A DNA stretch of 44,512 nucleotides. Source: an uncultured Desulfobulbaceae bacterium. Lineage in GTDB: Bacteria; Desulfobacterota; Desulfobulbia; Desulfobulbales; BM004. The notes beneath the pieces were generated by a model, which was given only the letters and a program-made list of their open reading frames with translations, had not been told where the DNA came from and ran no database searches. Positions 23,964 through 34,540 of the stretch are shown here, one piece after another; position 1 is the first letter of the stretch; the number at the start of each line of letters is the position of its first letter. A program made the translations under genes and the position numbers. The DNA lies in NCBI GenBank assembly GCA_945787325.1, contig CALZHP010000014.1, positions 1 through 44,512 of the forward strand, in the 5' to 3' direction.

Positions 23964-24308
23964 ATGAGGCAAAATATGAGCGAAAAGAATAAAACTGCAA
24001 TTGATAAAGTTGAAGACACGATGGCCTGTACAGCTTACGCTGAAGCAGGAGAGCCTTGCCCGATAGATGGTGATGAAAAGAAAGGTGAAAAAAAAGAAAA
24101 GGGCCCGAAAGAATCAGTCGGGGACACGATGGCCTGCGCTGCTTATGCCGAAGCCGGAGAACCTTGTCCAATACATGGCGGGAAGAAGAAAGTTAAAAAA
24201 AAGGAAAAGGGTTCGAAAGAATCAGTCGAGGATACGATGGCATGTGCAGCTTTTGCTGAAGCGGGCGAGCCGTGTCCTATTGATAGTACCAAAAAAGAAA
24301 AAGACTAA
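23964..24308 (+). CDS. Small tandem-repeat protein, 3 x 36-aa Cys-containing units with Lys/Glu-rich spacers
   Basis: Repeated DTMAC[TA]A[YF]AEAGEPCPI[DH] separated by KKEKG.KES spacers; DNA period exactly 108 bp (24015, 24123, 24231). Confidence 0.8.
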   Translation: MRQNMSEKNKTAIDKVEDTMACTAYAEAGEPCPIDGDEKKGEKKEKGPKESVGDTMACAAYAEAGEPCPIHGGKKKVKKKEKGSKESVEDTMACAAFAEAGEPCPIDSTKKEKD

Positions 24309-25682: not shown

Positions 25683-26099
25683 TTAATTTGATTTATTCAC
25701 CGCTTCTAAAAAGGCAGCCTTAAGCAATTCTTTTGGAGGCACCTCCGATACCCCGTATCTTCTTCAGGCTATTCCAAACTGATACGCATCACGTGCTGCC
25801 GGCTCTATATCCTGTCCATTTATCTGGATGGTTGGGCTGCCCAGATGTCTATGCATCTTTGCTTGTTCCCGTGTTGTAATAGCGACATACTCAAAATCGA
25901 TGGCAAGACCAAGTTCTTTGGCAGTGTTCTTGACCAAATCAATAGTAGGCTTAGTGGCACCGCACCGCTCTAAAGACGCAACTTTCACTTTGAGAGTTGA
26001 ACTGTTGCCGCTCTGGCCGCAGGCGACAACAAAAAGAAGGGTAACTGCTGCCATGGCTAGGATAGAAAGGTGATTCTTAGATTGCATATCTTTGTCCAT
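25683..26099 (-). CDS. Putative selenocysteine-containing thioredoxin-fold lipoprotein (138 aa if TGA at 25764-25766 is decoded as Sec)
   Basis: 111-aa ORF (lipobox LLFVVAC, SLERCGATKPTIDLVKNTAKELG, LGSPTIQINGQDIEPAARDAYQFGIA) then TGA, then in frame RRYGVSEVPPKELLKAAFLEAVNKSN*; resembles the C-R-x-Y...PP..L..A tail of small thioredoxin-like proteins with TGA at the Cys position. Confidence 0.65.
25735..25746 (-). promoter_or_regulatory. Candidate bacterial SECIS apical hairpin
   Basis: On the minus strand GGAG-GTGC-CTCC, loop beginning 21 nt after the TGA, loop starts with GU. Confidence 0.5.
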
Positions 26100-26604: not shown

Positions 26605-27084
26605 ATGCACTACATCTATACTTTTCTAATCATGCTTGTCTTCTGGGTGACGTTGTCCGGCAAGTTTGACCTCTTTCACCTGACCCTTGGCGTGATTTCC
26701 AGTGCACTGGTTTCCTGGATGTCTGCCGATCTTTTCATGCTTGATCCGAAGAAAAAGGGGCGGGTTGCCACAGCCTGCCGCTTTCTTGCTTATTTCCCCT
26801 GGTTAATTAAAGAAATATTCCTGTCTACCCTGCATGTAGCAATTCTTGCTCTTCATCCACGGATGCGTGAGGAGATTGATCCCACCATCGTCACTTTCAA
26901 AACCATCCTGAAGAAGGATATTGCTCGGGTCGCCCTGGCGAACTCCATTACATTGACGCCGGGAACTATTACTGTCAGGATTGTTGAGGATGTGTTCTAC
27001 GTCCATGCCATAAGCAGAAAAGCCGCTGCTGGTTTACCTGGAGAAATGGAACAACGATTGGCCAGGGTTTTTGAGGGAAGCTGA
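26605..27084 (+). CDS. mrpE: Mrp-type Na+/H+ antiporter subunit E
   Basis: FLIMLVFWVTLSGKFDLFHLTLGVISSALVSW..., ANSITLTPGTITVRIVEDVFYVHAI. Confidence 0.92.
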   Translation: MHYIYTFLIMLVFWVTLSGKFDLFHLTLGVISSALVSWMSADLFMLDPKKKGRVATACRFLAYFPWLIKEIFLSTLHVAILALHPRMREEIDPTIVTFKTILKKDIARVALANSITLTPGTITVRIVEDVFYVHAISRKAAAGLPGEMEQRLARVFEGS

Positions 27085-27085
27085 T

Positions 27086-27403
27086 ATGGAACAATTTTTT
27101 TTATTTATGGGCATAGGAATCTGCGTGTTGATGCTGCTCACTCTTTACCGGGTGGTGGTCGGACCCACCGTTATTGACCGGCTGATGGGTGTTAACGTAT
27201 TTGGCACCAAAACCACAGTGTTGTTGCTGATCATCGGTGTCATGTTTGATCGGCTTGACATGTTTATTGATATCTCTCTGGCCTATGCATTGCTCAACTT
27301 TATAGTAACAATCGCAACGTCTCGTTACTTTCAGCATCACAAAACATTAAGCGCAACCGGTTATGGTTACAGTTTTTCGAAAAGGGAGAAAAGTGATGAT
27401 TGA
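27086..27403 (+). CDS. mrpF: Mrp-type Na+/H+ antiporter subunit F
   Basis: LYRVVVGPTVIDRLMGVNVFGTKTTVLLLIIGVMFDRLDMFIDISLAYALLNFI. Confidence 0.92.
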   Translation: MEQFFLFMGIGICVLMLLTLYRVVVGPTVIDRLMGVNVFGTKTTVLLLIIGVMFDRLDMFIDISLAYALLNFIVTIATSRYFQHHKTLSATGYGYSFSKREKSDD

Positions 27404-27743
27404 TCTTCTGACTATACTGCTGCTGTCAATCGGCCTGTTCTCATTTTTTTCCACAACAATCGGTATCCTCCGGTTTCCGGATTTTTATTCGCGAATGCAT
27501 GCGGCCGGCAAGGGTGATGTGTTTTCGTCACTTTTAATTCTTGTCGGACTGGGTATATACTCACTGCACCATTTTACAGGTGCGTCTATTCTTGTCTTTT
27601 TAAAAATAGTCGCTATTTCAGTTTTTATTTTTCTGGCAAGTCCTACCGCCACCCATGCCATTGTTGACGCGGGGTACGAGTCAGGGGTGAAGCCATGGAC
27701 CAAGGATAAACAGGAGGAGGGCAGCGATGATCTGGCAACTTGA
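27396..27743 (+). CDS. mrpG: Mrp-type Na+/H+ antiporter subunit G
   Basis: IGLFSFFSTTIGILRFPDFYSRMHAAGKGDVFSSLLILVGLGIY. Confidence 0.92.
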   Translation: MIDLLTILLLSIGLFSFFSTTIGILRFPDFYSRMHAAGKGDVFSSLLILVGLGIYSLHHFTGASILVFLKIVAISVFIFLASPTATHAIVDAGYESGVKPWTKDKQEEGSDDLAT

Positions 27744-28749
27744 CCTTCTGATATTGTCTCTTATTGTCCTCTGCGCTCTGGCCACCATATCAGTCAAGGA
27801 TCTGTTCAGTGCGGCCATTATTTTCGGGGCTTACAGCTTTCTCATGTGTTTGCTGTGGACAGAAATGGGCGCGGTGGATGTGGCTTTTACCGAAGCATCT
27901 GTTGGGGCCGGTGTCAGTACGGTTCTTTTTGTCGCAGCCGTGTTCCGTACCACCCGGAAGGTCAAAGATCGAGGAGTAAAACGTTACTGGACCAAAGGTG
28001 TTGGGTTGTTGGCGGCAACTTCTGTCGGTGGTGTATTGATTGCTGCTGTAGGTGATTTCCCGGGATTTGCCGATCCCCTGTCACCGGCCAGCACCCACCT
28101 TTCCCCTTATTTTATCACCAATACTCTGACTGATACAGCTGTTCCCAATATTGTTACATCAGTACTTGCGGACTACCGGGGATACGATACCATGTTTGAA
28201 ACAGCAGTTATTTTTGCTGCTGGGCTTGCGGTAATTGCTATTCTTCGACGTTCTAAAACCGGTGTGCAACATGAATCGCGAGAGAAGGTCATACTGTCCG
28301 AAGGATACGAGGATACGATAATTCGTTTGGTAGCCAGGAAAATGGTGCCCTTTATGCAGCTTTTTGCCCTCTATGTTCTTGCTCACGGACATCACAGTCC
28401 GGGCGGGGGGTTTCAGGGTGGCGTTATTCTTGGGGCAAGTTTTATCCTTATTGCAATCAGTTATGATATGAAAATGCTGCTGGGCCGCATGAGCGAGAAA
28501 TGGAATGTGTTGCTAGGCAATATCGGGGTGCTGGTCTACGCCGGTATCGGTTTTGTGTGCCTTCTATTGGGGGCTAATTTTCTTGATTATTCTATACTGC
28601 ATCGTATTCTTCCTGCAACAGACGAGATCATGGCACGTTCGCACGGCATGCTTGGTATTGAAACCGGTGTTGCCATTGCAGTCTCGGCCATTGTCGTCTC
28701 GCTCTACGTCAATATAGCATCGCAAGGGAAACATGATAAAGGCCTGTAA
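27727..28749 (+). CDS. mrpB: MbhD/E-like (DUF4040, MrpA C-terminal type) fused to MrpB/MnhB domain
   Basis: N-terminal CALATISVKDLFSAAIIFGAYSFLMCLLWTEMGAVDVAFTEASVGAGVSTVLFVAAV; C-terminal MnhB VARKMVPFMQLFALYVLAHGHHSPGGGFQGGVILGASFILIAIS. Confidence 0.88.
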   Translation: MIWQLDLLILSLIVLCALATISVKDLFSAAIIFGAYSFLMCLLWTEMGAVDVAFTEASVGAGVSTVLFVAAVFRTTRKVKDRGVKRYWTKGVGLLAATSVGGVLIAAVGDFPGFADPLSPASTHLSPYFITNTLTDTAVPNIVTSVLADYRGYDTMFETAVIFAAGLAVIAILRRSKTGVQHESREKVILSEGYEDTIIRLVARKMVPFMQLFALYVLAHGHHSPGGGFQGGVILGASFILIAISYDMKMLLGRMSEKWNVLLGNIGVLVYAGIGFVCLLLGANFLDYSILHRILPATDEIMARSHGMLGIETGVAIAVSAIVVSLYVNIASQGKHDKGL

Positions 28750-28794
28750 TATATTACACCACAGCATTGAAAATTGAGGCAACGATAAGACGTT

Positions 28795-29178
28795 ATGGAA
28801 TATATACTCGCCAAGTATAACTACTGGATCTATATACTATTGATGATGATCGGCCTGTATGCCATGATCGCTAAAAATAACCTGGTCAAGAAAGTCATTG
28901 GCATGTCAATCTTTCAAACTGCCATTATCGTATTTTATGTTTCCATCGGAGCAAAACGCGGGGCAAGCATACCTATTATTGCTCATGGCCACGGCCATGA
29001 TGTTATCGCTACTGCTGTTTCAGCAGCAGAATACGCTAATCCGTTACCGCATGTTTTGATGCTGACCGCCATCGTTGTGTCCGTCGGAACCCTTGGTGTG
29101 GCACTTGCCGTTTGCCTGGCTATTTATCGTCGATACAACAGTCTCGAAGAAGATGAAATCCTGGAGCAGCTTCGATGA
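28795..29178 (+). CDS. mrpC: Mrp-type Na+/H+ antiporter subunit C (NuoK-like)
   Basis: YNYWIYILLMMIGLYAMIAKNNLVKKVIGMSIFQTAIIVFYVSIG...PLPHVLMLTAIVVSVGTLGVALAV. Confidence 0.92.
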   Translation: MEYILAKYNYWIYILLMMIGLYAMIAKNNLVKKVIGMSIFQTAIIVFYVSIGAKRGASIPIIAHGHGHDVIATAVSAAEYANPLPHVLMLTAIVVSVGTLGVALAVCLAIYRRYNSLEEDEILEQLR

Positions 29179-30671
29179 TCGCATCTGAACAGGCTGTTGC
29201 CCTTATGGTTGTCCTGCCGCTTTTGAGCGCCCTGGTAATCAATATGGCAGGATGGTTTGACCGGCGTCTCTGTTTTCCTATAGCCCTGTTTGCCTTGCTT
29301 GGGTCGTGTTGCTCTGCCTTTATTACAGTGTCTCGAGTAATAAAATCCGGTGTAATACATTACCGGCTTGGCGGCTGGGCGCCTCCCATGGGCATTGAAT
29401 ATGTAGTTGACCACCTGAACGCCCTAGTGCTGGTTATTATTTTTGTTGTAAGTCTGCTGGCGCTTCTATTTTCCTATAAAAGTATACAGGTCGAACTTCC
29501 TGAAAAAATTCTGCAGTTTTATACACTATATTTGCTTTTGGTAGCCGGCCTGGCCGGTATGACCATTACCGGTGATGCTTTTAACCTGTACGTGCTAATG
29601 GAGATTTCGGCTCTTACCTCGTACGCGCTCATTGCCCTGGGGGATAAAAGGGCCCTGGTGGCCAGCTTTAACTACATCATTCTCGGTACAATCGGTGCCA
29701 GTTTATATCTTCTCGGAGTCGGCCATCTATACATAATGACCGGCTCGCTTAATATGGCAGACTTGCAAACTATATTACCGGCGCTTCTTGATGCACGGGC
29801 TATTGCTGTGGCTTTTGTCCTGGTCATGGGTGGTGTGTGGGTCAAGATGGCCTTCTTTCCGATGCACGGCTGGCTGCCAAATGCATATTCGTATGCGCCT
29901 TCCTCCACCAGCTGTCTGGTGGCGCCGCTGATGACGAAAGTTTCTGTCTATATCATGATCCGTATGATGTTTTCGGTCTTTAACCCCAACTATATTTTCG
30001 TATACCTAGATTGGGGAAGGCTGGTTGTGCCCCTGGCCACAGTTGCAATTATATTTGGCTCCATCTCGGCCCTGGCCCAGAAGGATCTGAGAAAAATGCT
30101 CACCTATATAATCGTTGCCGAAGTCGGCTACATGGTAGGTGGTGCATGGCTTGCCAACGTAACCGGGCTGACAGGTGCCATCTATCATATCCTGGCTGAT
30201 GCCATGATGACCCTCTGTCTCTTTATGGTTGTCGGTGCCATAATCTATAAGCTCAAAGATTCATCTATGGATTCCATGGAATTCATTTTCCGGCGCATGC
30301 CGGTCACCTCGGTGGTTTTTGTAATTGGCGCCTTTGCCATGATCGGCATTCCGCCGACCTGCGGATTTTTCAGCAAATGGTACCTAATCAGTGGTGCCAT
30401 TGAGACAAGCCAGTGGCATTATATCTTCGCGCTCCTTTTTTCCAGTCTGGTGAATGCGTTCGTTTTTTTCAGACTGTTTGAAATAGGCTTTTTCGGCAAA
30501 AAACCGGCTGATGGGCATGATCACCATGCCCCCGAAATAGCCGTCTCCGAAGCCCCGGTCACCATGCTTGTGCCAATGGTATTAACTGCTTTATCCCTGA
30601 TTGCTATTGGTATATACACTAACGAAATTGTAACCGTGCTAATTACTAAAACTTTGCCGGTCGGATTATAA
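29175..30671 (+). CDS. mrpD: Mrp-type Na+/H+ antiporter subunit D (NuoL/M/N-like)
   Basis: GDAFNLYVLMEISALTSYALIALGDKRALVASFNYIILGTIGASLYLLGVGHLYIMTGSLNMADL; KMAFFPMHGWLPNAYSYAPSSTSCLVAPLMTKVSVY. Confidence 0.92.
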   Translation: MIASEQAVALMVVLPLLSALVINMAGWFDRRLCFPIALFALLGSCCSAFITVSRVIKSGVIHYRLGGWAPPMGIEYVVDHLNALVLVIIFVVSLLALLFSYKSIQVELPEKILQFYTLYLLLVAGLAGMTITGDAFNLYVLMEISALTSYALIALGDKRALVASFNYIILGTIGASLYLLGVGHLYIMTGSLNMADLQTILPALLDARAIAVAFVLVMGGVWVKMAFFPMHGWLPNAYSYAPSSTSCLVAPLMTKVSVYIMIRMMFSVFNPNYIFVYLDWGRLVVPLATVAIIFGSISALAQKDLRKMLTYIIVAEVGYMVGGAWLANVTGLTGAIYHILADAMMTLCLFMVVGAIIYKLKDSSMDSMEFIFRRMPVTSVVFVIGAFAMIGIPPTCGFFSKWYLISGAIETSQWHYIFALLFSSLVNAFVFFRLFEIGFFGKKPADGHDHHAPEIAVSEAPVTMLVPMVLTALSLIAIGIYTNEIVTVLITKTLPVGL

Positions 30672-30855
30672 ATGCAACTATTCATCAGCACCCCATTTAT
30701 GAGCGATCAGGCCATCCAGCATAACAGCGAAGCGGTGTCTGCTACTATAGCCGGATGGCATGCTTTCACATATCTGGAGCACTGCTGAACAGTTTTAGCT
30801 TTTTGAGTGTTTAATATATTTCAATTTATACAGATTAGTTACTTATAGGAAGAAT

Positions 30856-32331
30856 ATGCACCCACCATTCCCAACAGCAACCCCGCTTCTTGCAATATGC
30901 TCCTCGCTTGTTGCAGTGCCGCTCATTGCCTTAAGCGGTAAAAAGCCCAACCTGCGGGAATTCTGGACACTTCTGGCGGGTGCGATCAAATTCTGCCTGG
31001 TTATTTCAATGGCAGGGTGGATCCTTGCCGGTAATACACATACCTTTGAGTTGTGGCAATTTTTACCAGGTCTTTCCATAAAACTTACGGTTGACGGATT
31101 TGGAATGCTCTTTGCCTTGGTTGCTTCGTCCTTGTGGATTCTCACCTCGGTTTATTCCATCGGCTATATGCGGGGTCTTAATGAACATGCCCAGACCCGT
31201 TACTTCTGCTTTTTTGCTTTATCGTTGTCGGCAACTATCGGTGTTGCTTTTTCCGGCAACCTTCTCACTCTCTATCTTTTTTACGAACTCCTGTCCTTAT
31301 CAACCTATCCGCTGGTAACACATCACCAGGACACCGAAGCCCGCGGTGGCGGCCGCAAATATCTTGCCTACCTGTTAAGCACTTCAATCGGTTTAGCACT
31401 GCCAGCTATGCTGGTCACCTATTCCCTTGCTGGCACTCTGGATTTCAACGTATTAGGCATATTCCCGGAAGCCACAGCCAAAAGCACCCTGCTGGTCCTG
31501 CTTGTCATGTTTATTTATGGATTCGCCAAGGCCGGTGTCATGCCATTCCACTCATGGCTGCCCGGCGCAATGGTGGCACCGACTCCGGTAAGCGCTCTGC
31601 TGCACGCCGTGGCAGTTGTAAAAGTCGGAGTATTCAGTATCGGCAGGATTCTCACTGGCATTTTTGGCATTAATCTGCTGGCTGCCCAGAACCTCAACAC
31701 CGTGGTTTGTGTAATCGCGGGCTTTACAGTAATCGTATCTTCCCTTATTGCTTTGTCGCAGGACAATTTGAAGCGAAGGCTCGCTTTTTCAACGGTTGGC
31801 CAGCTTTCCTACATCATTCTCGGAATAGGACTTGCCTCAATATTGGGGGTTCAGGGCGGCATGTTGCACATTGCCATGCATGCCTTTGGCAAGATAACCC
31901 TGTTCTTCTGTGCCGGCGCTATTTTTGTGGCAACCGGCAAGAAATATATATCGGAAATGGTAGGTATCGGGCGACGCATGCCTTACACCATGTTCGCCTT
32001 TTTTCTTGGCTCGTTGTCGGTTATCGGATTACCACCGGCCGGCGGTCTTATCAGTAAATTTCTTATGGTGCGCGGTGCTTTACAGGCTGACCTCTGGTGG
32101 GTACTGGTCATTTACCTGGTAAGTTCCTTTTTGAATGCCGCCTATTTTCTGCCGATCGTTTATAAGGCTTTTTTCTGCTCTGAGGAAGAAGCCCTTTTTG
32201 AAAAGAAAGTTGACGAGGCCCCCATGTGCTGCGTGCTTCCGCTGACCATAACCGCAGGAATATCCATAGGGCTGTTTTTTTATCCGAATCTGTTTTATAG
32301 CCTGGCCCAAATTGCCATAGCTATGCCATAG
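30856..32331 (+). CDS. Second NuoM/N/MrpD-like proton-translocating subunit
   Basis: GNLLTLYLFYELLSLSTYPLVTHHQDTEARGGGRKYLAYLLSTSIGLALP; KAGVMPFHSWLPGAMVAPTPVSALLHAVAVVKVGVFSI. Confidence 0.9.
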   Translation: MHPPFPTATPLLAICSSLVAVPLIALSGKKPNLREFWTLLAGAIKFCLVISMAGWILAGNTHTFELWQFLPGLSIKLTVDGFGMLFALVASSLWILTSVYSIGYMRGLNEHAQTRYFCFFALSLSATIGVAFSGNLLTLYLFYELLSLSTYPLVTHHQDTEARGGGRKYLAYLLSTSIGLALPAMLVTYSLAGTLDFNVLGIFPEATAKSTLLVLLVMFIYGFAKAGVMPFHSWLPGAMVAPTPVSALLHAVAVVKVGVFSIGRILTGIFGINLLAAQNLNTVVCVIAGFTVIVSSLIALSQDNLKRRLAFSTVGQLSYIILGIGLASILGVQGGMLHIAMHAFGKITLFFCAGAIFVATGKKYISEMVGIGRRMPYTMFAFFLGSLSVIGLPPAGGLISKFLMVRGALQADLWWVLVIYLVSSFLNAAYFLPIVYKAFFCSEEEALFEKKVDEAPMCCVLPLTITAGISIGLFFYPNLFYSLAQIAIAMP

Positions 32332-32377
32332 GCAGGAAAAATATATTCTTGATTATATAGACAAGGAAAGAGAGAGT

Positions 32378-32536
32378 ATGAGCGAAGAAATTAAAAGGAA
32401 TGAAAAAGGTGAAATCGAAGTCCTTGGTCATTCACCCTGGCCGGGATATCGTAAAGCATTCTACGTCGCCTTTACACTCGGCATTATATATCTGTCACTG
32501 GCATTCAGTGGATTGTTGTCAGGAGGAGGACACTGA
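32378..32536 (+). CDS. Small single-TM membrane protein within the Mrp operon (52 aa)
   Basis: Hand translation MSEEIKRNEKGEIEVLGHSPWPGYRKAFYVAFTLGIIYLSLAFSGLLSGGGH*; SD-like GGAAAGAGAGAG; stop overlaps next ATG (TGATGG). Confidence 0.75.
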   Translation: MSEEIKRNEKGEIEVLGHSPWPGYRKAFYVAFTLGIIYLSLAFSGLLSGGGH

Positions 32537-32781
32537 TGGAAGAGAAACAGGGTTGGTTTGATTCAAATAAGAACCTTGTCTTATTTCTTCGTATCTTTTA
32601 CGCATCTCTCGTAGTGTTGCTGGGGATTGATTTTTTTATAGAAAAACACCCGGATTTTGCTTTTGATGGCGCACCGGATTTTTTTGCCGCCTACGGATTT
32701 ATATCTTGTGTCATGCTGGTTCTGATTGCCAAGGTTCTGCGTATGTTTCTGATGAAGGATGAGGATTACTACGATGATTGA
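32536..32781 (+). CDS. Small two-TM membrane protein within the Mrp operon (81 aa)
   Basis: MEEKQGWFDSNKNLVLFLRIFYASLVVLLGIDFFIEKHPDFAFDGAPDFFAAYGFISCVMLVLIAKVLRMFLMKDEDYYDD; overlaps both neighbours by a few nt. Confidence 0.8.
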   Translation: MEEKQGWFDSNKNLVLFLRIFYASLVVLLGIDFFIEKHPDFAFDGAPDFFAAYGFISCVMLVLIAKVLRMFLMKDEDYYDD

Positions 32782-34540
32782 GCTGCCTCCAGCTATATTT
32801 TTTCTTATTGCGGCAGTCATTGCTCCGATCCTGCCGGGCAGCCTGCGCAAGGTTGTCCTGCTGGCCACACCGCTTATAGCCCTTGCCGTAGTCCACTCTA
32901 TCCCGGAAGGACCGCATTTCGAATTTACTTTCTTTGATATCGATTTGGTTATGGCCAGGGTCGACCGGCTTAACCGTGTTTTTGGCTACATTTTCTGTAT
33001 CATCAGCTTTCTGGCAGTACTTTTCTCCCTACAAAACAACCATAAAGTTGAGGCATCATCGGCAATGATCTATGCCGGTAGTGCCTTGGGCGTCACATTT
33101 GCCGGTGACTTTTTCAGCCTGTATGTTTTTTGGGAGCTCATGGCTGTTGCTTCAACTTTTGTGATCCTGGCATCCCCTGATCAACGTTCAAGTAAGGCGG
33201 CTTTCAGGTATGTTCTGGTCCATCTCTGCGGTGGGCTATTTCTCCTTGCTGGTATAATTTTTCGACTGCATGAAACCGGTTCTGTTGCTGTTGAGTTTGT
33301 CGGACTCACTGGATTGTCTTCATGGCTCATTTTTATAGGCATTGCGGTTAATGCAGCGATTCCACCATTGCATGCCTGGCTCAAAGATGCCTACCCGACT
33401 GCTTCGTTCACCGGCGCAGTATTCTTGAGTGCTTTTACAACCAAGAGTGCCGTGTACGTTATGGCACGAACCTTTCCAGGTACTGAAATGTTGATCTGGC
33501 TCGGAGCGATCATGACCTTTGTGCCGATCTTTTATGCAGTACTGGAAAACGATATCCGCGGGGTGCTTTCCTACAGTCTGATCAATCAGGTCGGCTTTAT
33601 GATGTGCGGTATAGGGATAGGTACGCCGTTGGCGATCAATGGTGCGGTCAGCCACGCCTTTGCCCATATTCTTTATAAAGGATTGCTGTTCATGAGTGCT
33701 GGTGCCGTACTGTACAGGACAGGTAAGATAAAGTGCACCGATCTGGGCGGCCTTTACAAGTACATGCCCTTTACCTGTATCTGCTGCATTGTCGGAGCTG
33801 CCTCGATCAGTGCATTCCCGCTATTTTCGGGTTTTGTCAGCAAGTCTATGATTGTCAGTGCTGCGGGTCATGGCCAGTTGCTGGTGGTCTGGCTGATGTT
33901 GCAGTTTGCCTCTGCTGGTGTTTTTCATCATGCCGGGATCAAGGTGCCGTTTTTTATGTTTTTTGGCCATGATTCCGGTCTGCGTCCTAAAGAAGCGCCA
34001 TGGAACATGCGGATTGCCATGGGGATGGGAGCATTTCTCTGTATCGGTATCGGCGCTTTTCCTCAGCCACTCTACAATATCCTGCCATTCCCGGTTGATT
34101 ATGTGCCTTATACCGGTGCCCATGTGGTCGGGCAATTGCAGATCCTGATGTTCGGAGCCCTTGCTTTTGCGTTGTTGATGCTCTCAGGCATCTACCCGGC
34201 AGAGATAAGATCCATTAATCTTGATACTGACTGGTTTTACCGTAAGGGCTTTAAAGGCCTCTATAATCTTGCTGATCAGGGATTAAACAGCATTAATGAA
34301 ATATGTAACCGCATCATTGCTCAAGGTTGGACAAAAAAACTGAACACTTTCTTTCAGCAGGGACCTGGAAATATCAGCATGATTTTCTTGAAACCGATCT
34401 GGCGGGTATCCGGTATTTCACAGGATGATCAGGATCAGCGGGCAGCAAAGTTATTAGAAAAATTTCGCCATTCCAGCTTTACTATTGGCAATACGGCTCT
34501 GTTTACTGCTGTTTTGCTTCTATTGCTTATATTATTATAA
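32774..34540 (+). CDS. Third NuoL/MrpA/MrpD-like proton-translocating subunit with long C-terminal extension
   Basis: GDFFSLYVFWELMAVASTFVILASPDQRSSKAAFRYVLVHLCGGLFLLAGIIF; NAAIPPLHAWLKDAYPTASFTGAVFLSAFTTKSAVYV; C-terminal ~150 aa ending in a terminal TM helix. Confidence 0.9.
   Translation: MIELPPAIFFLIAAVIAPILPGSLRKVVLLATPLIALAVVHSIPEGPHFEFTFFDIDLVMARVDRLNRVFGYIFCIISFLAVLFSLQNNHKVEASSAMIYAGSALGVTFAGDFFSLYVFWELMAVASTFVILASPDQRSSKAAFRYVLVHLCGGLFLLAGIIFRLHETGSVAVEFVGLTGLSSWLIFIGIAVNAAIPPLHAWLKDAYPTASFTGAVFLSAFTTKSAVYVMARTFPGTEMLIWLGAIMTFVPIFYAVLENDIRGVLSYSLINQVGFMMCGIGIGTPLAINGAVSHAFAHILYKGLLFMSAGAVLYRTGKIKCTDLGGLYKYMPFTCICCIVGAASISAFPLFSGFVSKSMIVSAAGHGQLLVVWLMLQFASAGVFHHAGIKVPFFMFFGHDSGLRPKEAPWNMRIAMGMGAFLCIGIGAFPQPLYNILPFPVDYVPYTGAHVVGQLQILMFGALAFALLMLSGIYPAEIRSINLDTDWFYRKGFKGLYNLADQGLNSINEICNRIIAQGWTKKLNTFFQQGPGNISMIFLKPIWRVSGISQDDQDQRAAKLLEKFRHSSFTIGNTALFTAVLLLLLILL

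Follow-up and report, generated by a model that had tools for sequence, protein, structure and literature searches.

Locus and reading frame

The window, meaning the whole 44,512-nt stretch of DNA analysed here from an uncultured Desulfobulbaceae bacterium, carries on its minus strand a reading frame that opens with ATG at 26099, closes with TAA at 25685-25683, and contains a single in-frame TGA as codon 112 (25766-25764), with 111 codons before it and 26 sense codons after it. Readthrough of this codon would yield a product of 138 aa (...GSPTIQINGQDIEPAARDAYQFGIA-U-RRYGVSEVPPKELLKAAFLEAVNKSN). A sequence-only reading of the window had described this frame, which direct reading confirms, and had proposed that it encodes a new selenoprotein, namely a thioredoxin-fold lipoprotein in which selenocysteine (Sec) occupies a conserved Cys position. 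By length alone the 26-codon open run past the TGA is not unusual; the open runs behind other stops in the window measure 0–103 codons. The codons past the TGA match the tail of the protein's family in every relative examined, and the significance of this part of the frame therefore rests on homology. The case as a whole draws on homology, Sec machinery, and RNA structure. Features of the gene are collected in Table 1.

Table 1 Features of the predicted selenoprotein gene, in window coordinates.
Feature	Position	Strand	Basis
DF-family selenoprotein gene (predicted)	25683..26099	(-)	138 aa with Sec112, plus TAA stop; NF049942 95.9 bits against a cut-off of 70
Lipoprotein anchor (predicted): N-terminal signal sequence with the lipobox LLFVVA-C27 at its end	26016..26099	(-)	sequence, by eye
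Cys46, invariant first redox residue (putative)	25962..25964	(-)	34-row alignment; Sec in L045 and L047
Pro89 of GSPT, expected cis-proline of the thioredoxin fold	25833..25835	(-)	invariant in alignment; cis geometry expected from the fold
Sec codon TGA (codon 112)	25764..25766	(-)	invariant U/C column, [U/C]R-x-[Y/F/H] motif; 34-row alignment
Putative bacterial SECIS hairpin	25736..25754	(-)	8-bp stem GGGGUAUC/GGUGCCUC, apical loop GGA; fold and positional conservation

Neighbours of the gene in the window include a carbonic anhydrase gene and genes for Mrp antiporter subunits. Genes of the Mrp-type Na+/H+ antiporter, along with related ones, form a run at 26605-34540 (+), with matches to MNHE and Proton_antipo_M, that is divergent from the gene of interest. 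Antiporter genes of a similar kind adjoin the DF gene of one relative (G001). A functional link through this synteny was considered and dropped because such genes do not lie beside the gene in two other relatives (G009 and G002). Also in the window, a 114-aa ORF at 23964-24308 (+) contains three copies of the tandem repeat 'DTMACxAxAEAGEPCPIxG' separated by Lys-rich linkers, and gave no Pfam match.

Membership in the DF family

The readthrough protein scores above the cut-off of the NCBIfam model NF049942, "DF family (seleno)protein", along its entire length (model positions 1-96 of 96), and the model is likewise matched by all 34 aligned members. Xiao & Zhang (PMC12013277) described the family in 2025, under the name "hypothetical protein DF", from Desulfosediminicola flagellatus and reported Cys homologues, and a 2026 review of prokaryotic selenoproteins lists DF under NF049942 with one Sec (PMC13188914, Table 1). 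The NCBI model itself already labels the family as a (seleno)protein. In view of the NF049942 match and the 2025 description, the protein is not the founder of a new family, as the sequence-only reading had implied, but a new member of a known one. We estimate the probability that the gene encodes a selenoprotein of the DF family at roughly 95%.

The position occupied by Sec or Cys is common to DF and the window protein, which differs from the published protein in its added signal peptide, being a predicted lipoprotein. A second difference concerns distribution: no TGA homologue was found among other Sec-using bacteria in the original description (PMC12013277), whereas many were found in this analysis. 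What this adds to the published record is modest: a lipoprotein form and a broader occurrence of TGA homologues. With these findings, DF, published with Sec from one organism, gains support as a selenoprotein family of wide distribution in which Cys and Sec exchange and the hairpin is conserved; they also point to a membrane-anchored form of it. Without the DF model in annotation, the gene would be cut off just ahead of its putative redox residue.

Homologues and conservation of the Sec column

The sequence-only reading had made its case depend on homologues in which Cys or TGA aligns with codon 112, and such homologues are plentiful. Among 12 genomes of the same family, five (the window's own counted) have a DF gene, each with one internal TGA. 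Across the phylum, 23 of 395 genomes match above the cut-off, with TGA-bearing and uninterrupted genes mixed. The host genome contains a second DF-family lipoprotein gene (G000:C31:14965-15315, minus strand; L028/L058), whose product is 39% identical to the window protein and which also has TGA at the Sec codon. A related-locus search using the window protein alone returned only two weak loci, one from Acidimicrobiia (L064) and one from Bacteroidetes (L065).

Alignment of 34 located rows shows that the column of codon 112 is always TGA (25 rows) or TGT/TGC (9 rows), in keeping with the proposed Sec codon at a conserved Cys position. The Arg directly after this column is invariant, as are Gly87, Ser88, and Pro89, and so is Cys46 if Sec is counted in two rows. 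In the tree, 11 Sec proteins, the window protein among them, form a supported group (96/87), and three Sec/Cys changes are required over the whole topology.

Predicted product and role

Both the lipoprotein N-terminus and the thioredoxin fold suggested earlier stood up to closer analysis. A hydrophobic signal followed by a lipobox Cys is recognisable by eye, and a similar hydrophobic segment plus Cys precedes the domain in four relatives (L023, L024, L027, and L028, from G001, G002, G009, and the paralogue). The AlphaFold2 model has a mean pLDDT of 87, with values of about 93-98 over the domain, and its elements follow the order beta-alpha-beta-alpha-beta-beta-alpha. The nearest solved structures are thioredoxins (Foldseek against the PDB; best E-value 1.2e-3, TM-scores about 0.4-0.5), and a sequence profile match was obtained to the MJ0307 thioredoxin 1fo5 (E 4.5e-6). 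We hypothesize that the product is a thioredoxin-fold lipoprotein that is exported, lipidated, and anchored toward the periplasm.

Cys46 lies at the N-terminus of helix 1, the site of the first Cys in CxxC thioredoxins. There is no CxxC motif, the single Cys46 being followed by GATK, and the protein scores only 16.1 bits against the 92.75-bit cut-off of the CxxC thioredoxin model TIGR00411. The AlphaFold2 model places Sec112 in a loop that leads from the beta-hairpin to the last helix. Residues 88, 112, 115, and 118 are assigned by DSSP as isolated bridges, which would be in line with a Sec segment that packs onto the Ser88-Pro89 face in the model. Cys46 and Sec112 probably constitute the redox pair and would do so by forming a selenenylsulfide. 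The Thioredoxin_3 / MJ0307-MTH895 thioredoxins (PF13192, TIGR00411; PDB 1fo5, 1nho, 1ilo) have the thioredoxin-like core in common with the window protein but lack the loop that carries its distant Sec112. The Sec.1/Sec.2 thioredoxin-like selenoproteins (PF13192; PMC13188914, Table 1) also share the fold; their Sec, however, sits in CxU/UxC, whereas that of the window protein lies 66 residues past its sole active-site Cys and belongs to a [U/C]RxY motif.

Gene neighbourhood offers a further indication of role. In one relative only (G002), the orthologue (L060:5100-4654, minus strand) is followed on its own strand, after one unassigned ORF of 150 aa, by genes resembling those for DsbB, DsbA, and TlpA. 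Periplasmic thiol redox is therefore our best guess, and the most likely function is that of a periplasm-facing thiol/selenol oxidoreductase using the Cys46 and Sec112 pair. A selenoprotein could instead use residue 112 for binding or delivery of a metal or metalloid (e.g., Hg, As, or Se) rather than for thiol-disulfide exchange. The lone Cys at the classical site would suit such a role, the structural neighbours include 2obk, a 'putative Se binding protein', and the DUF2703 model (PF10865) is matched at 22.9 bits, close to its gathering score of 23.6 but below it and thus outside membership. That match spans residues 42-100, where the Cys and GSPT lie, and leaves the Sec tail outside. We consider this role unlikely: metal-resistance genes are absent beside the gene in the window, and the sole informative neighbourhood, that of G002, belongs to Dsb/TlpA thiol redox. 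Returning to the oxidoreductase, we suggest tentatively, as an idea somewhat short of even odds, that the window protein belongs to a separate exported lipoprotein branch of DF in which an extracytoplasmic Sec partners a single Cys on a thioredoxin fold that lacks CxxC and is coupled to Dsb/TlpA periplasmic redox.

Decoding of the TGA codon

Sec machinery in the host was the other point on which the sequence-only reading had staked its proposal, and it is complete. The same assembly encodes tRNA-Sec (selC; 75.3 bits, anticodon TCA), SelA (614 bits), SelB (373.5 bits), and SelD (333.5 bits), the full set expected of a genome with a bacterial selenoprotein gene. The host selD (L020; G000 contig 2, about 77,530-78,456) also counts as a selenoprotein gene: it has an in-frame TGA within the motif CGUAAK, the classical Sec site of SelD.

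A putative bacterial SECIS hairpin follows codon 112, its stem beginning 9 nt and its GGA loop 17 nt past the TGA. The predicted fold energy is -9.8 kcal/mol, and the hairpin alone is no stabler than shuffled sequence (z -0.21). As this z-score is uninformative, positional conservation was used instead. Most of the 11 members of a short-tail group have the stem and a G[G/U] loop at the same place, with 90.9% of alignment cells paired compared with 38.6-56.8% when the partner was slid. Covariation is modest, with one compensatory change (C-G to G-C in G040), and the observed score was attained by 18 of 500 shuffles. Long-tail members, which have a peptide insertion here, mostly show, 21 nt past the TGA, a hairpin whose loop is of the GG[U/C] type. 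With its GGA loop at 17 nt and -9.0 kcal/mol, the window hairpin agrees with the bSECIS model quoted in PMC13188914, a rule of weak specificity that some Cys genes also satisfy somewhere in the stretch. In all likelihood UGA 112 is read as selenocysteine, by SelB with Sec-tRNA(Sec) and presumably under the guidance of this hairpin.

It is very improbable that the TGA is a true stop and the gene truncated or a pseudogene with a relic tail. TGA does normally end ORFs in this window (6 of 22), and the tail is short when taken on its own. Against this, the paralogue, four same-family genomes, and many further genomes of the phylum carry TGA at this codon, and the only alternative there is Cys; the host, moreover, has the machinery to decode it. 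Past the TGA, pN/pS is below 0.7 against close relatives (0.25-0.66 against the four same-family relatives, about equal to the values for the upstream part or a little higher), indicating that the tail is under coding constraint, although the value is higher, 0.95 over only 24 codons, against the in-genome paralogue. Decoding as Trp or Cys through code reassignment or suppression has the open frame in its favour and nothing beyond, and its likelihood is negligible, since the termination of those six ordinary ORFs by TGA shows a working stop and no global reassignment, the host has a UCA-anticodon tRNA-Sec with SelA, SelB, and SelD, and homologues show Cys at the column, never Trp.

Variants among the homologues

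With the selenoprotein reading of codon 112 retained, two groups of homologues deserve mention. Two loci, L045 (G020) and L047 (G094), have two in-frame TGAs each (1525-1527 and 1723-1725), one in the column of the C-terminal Sec and the other in that of Cys46 (HTQGUPAK and YTQGUTAK), which suggests a double-Sec variant of DF; no clear bSECIS was seen past the first TGA of either. Four more distant homologues (L052, L054, L055, and L056) score about 45-52 bits, below the DF model cut-off, and carry TGA in the C-terminal Sec column, in contexts such as FTURVF, FTURLF, and VSURTY, possibly representing a separate selenoprotein subfamily.
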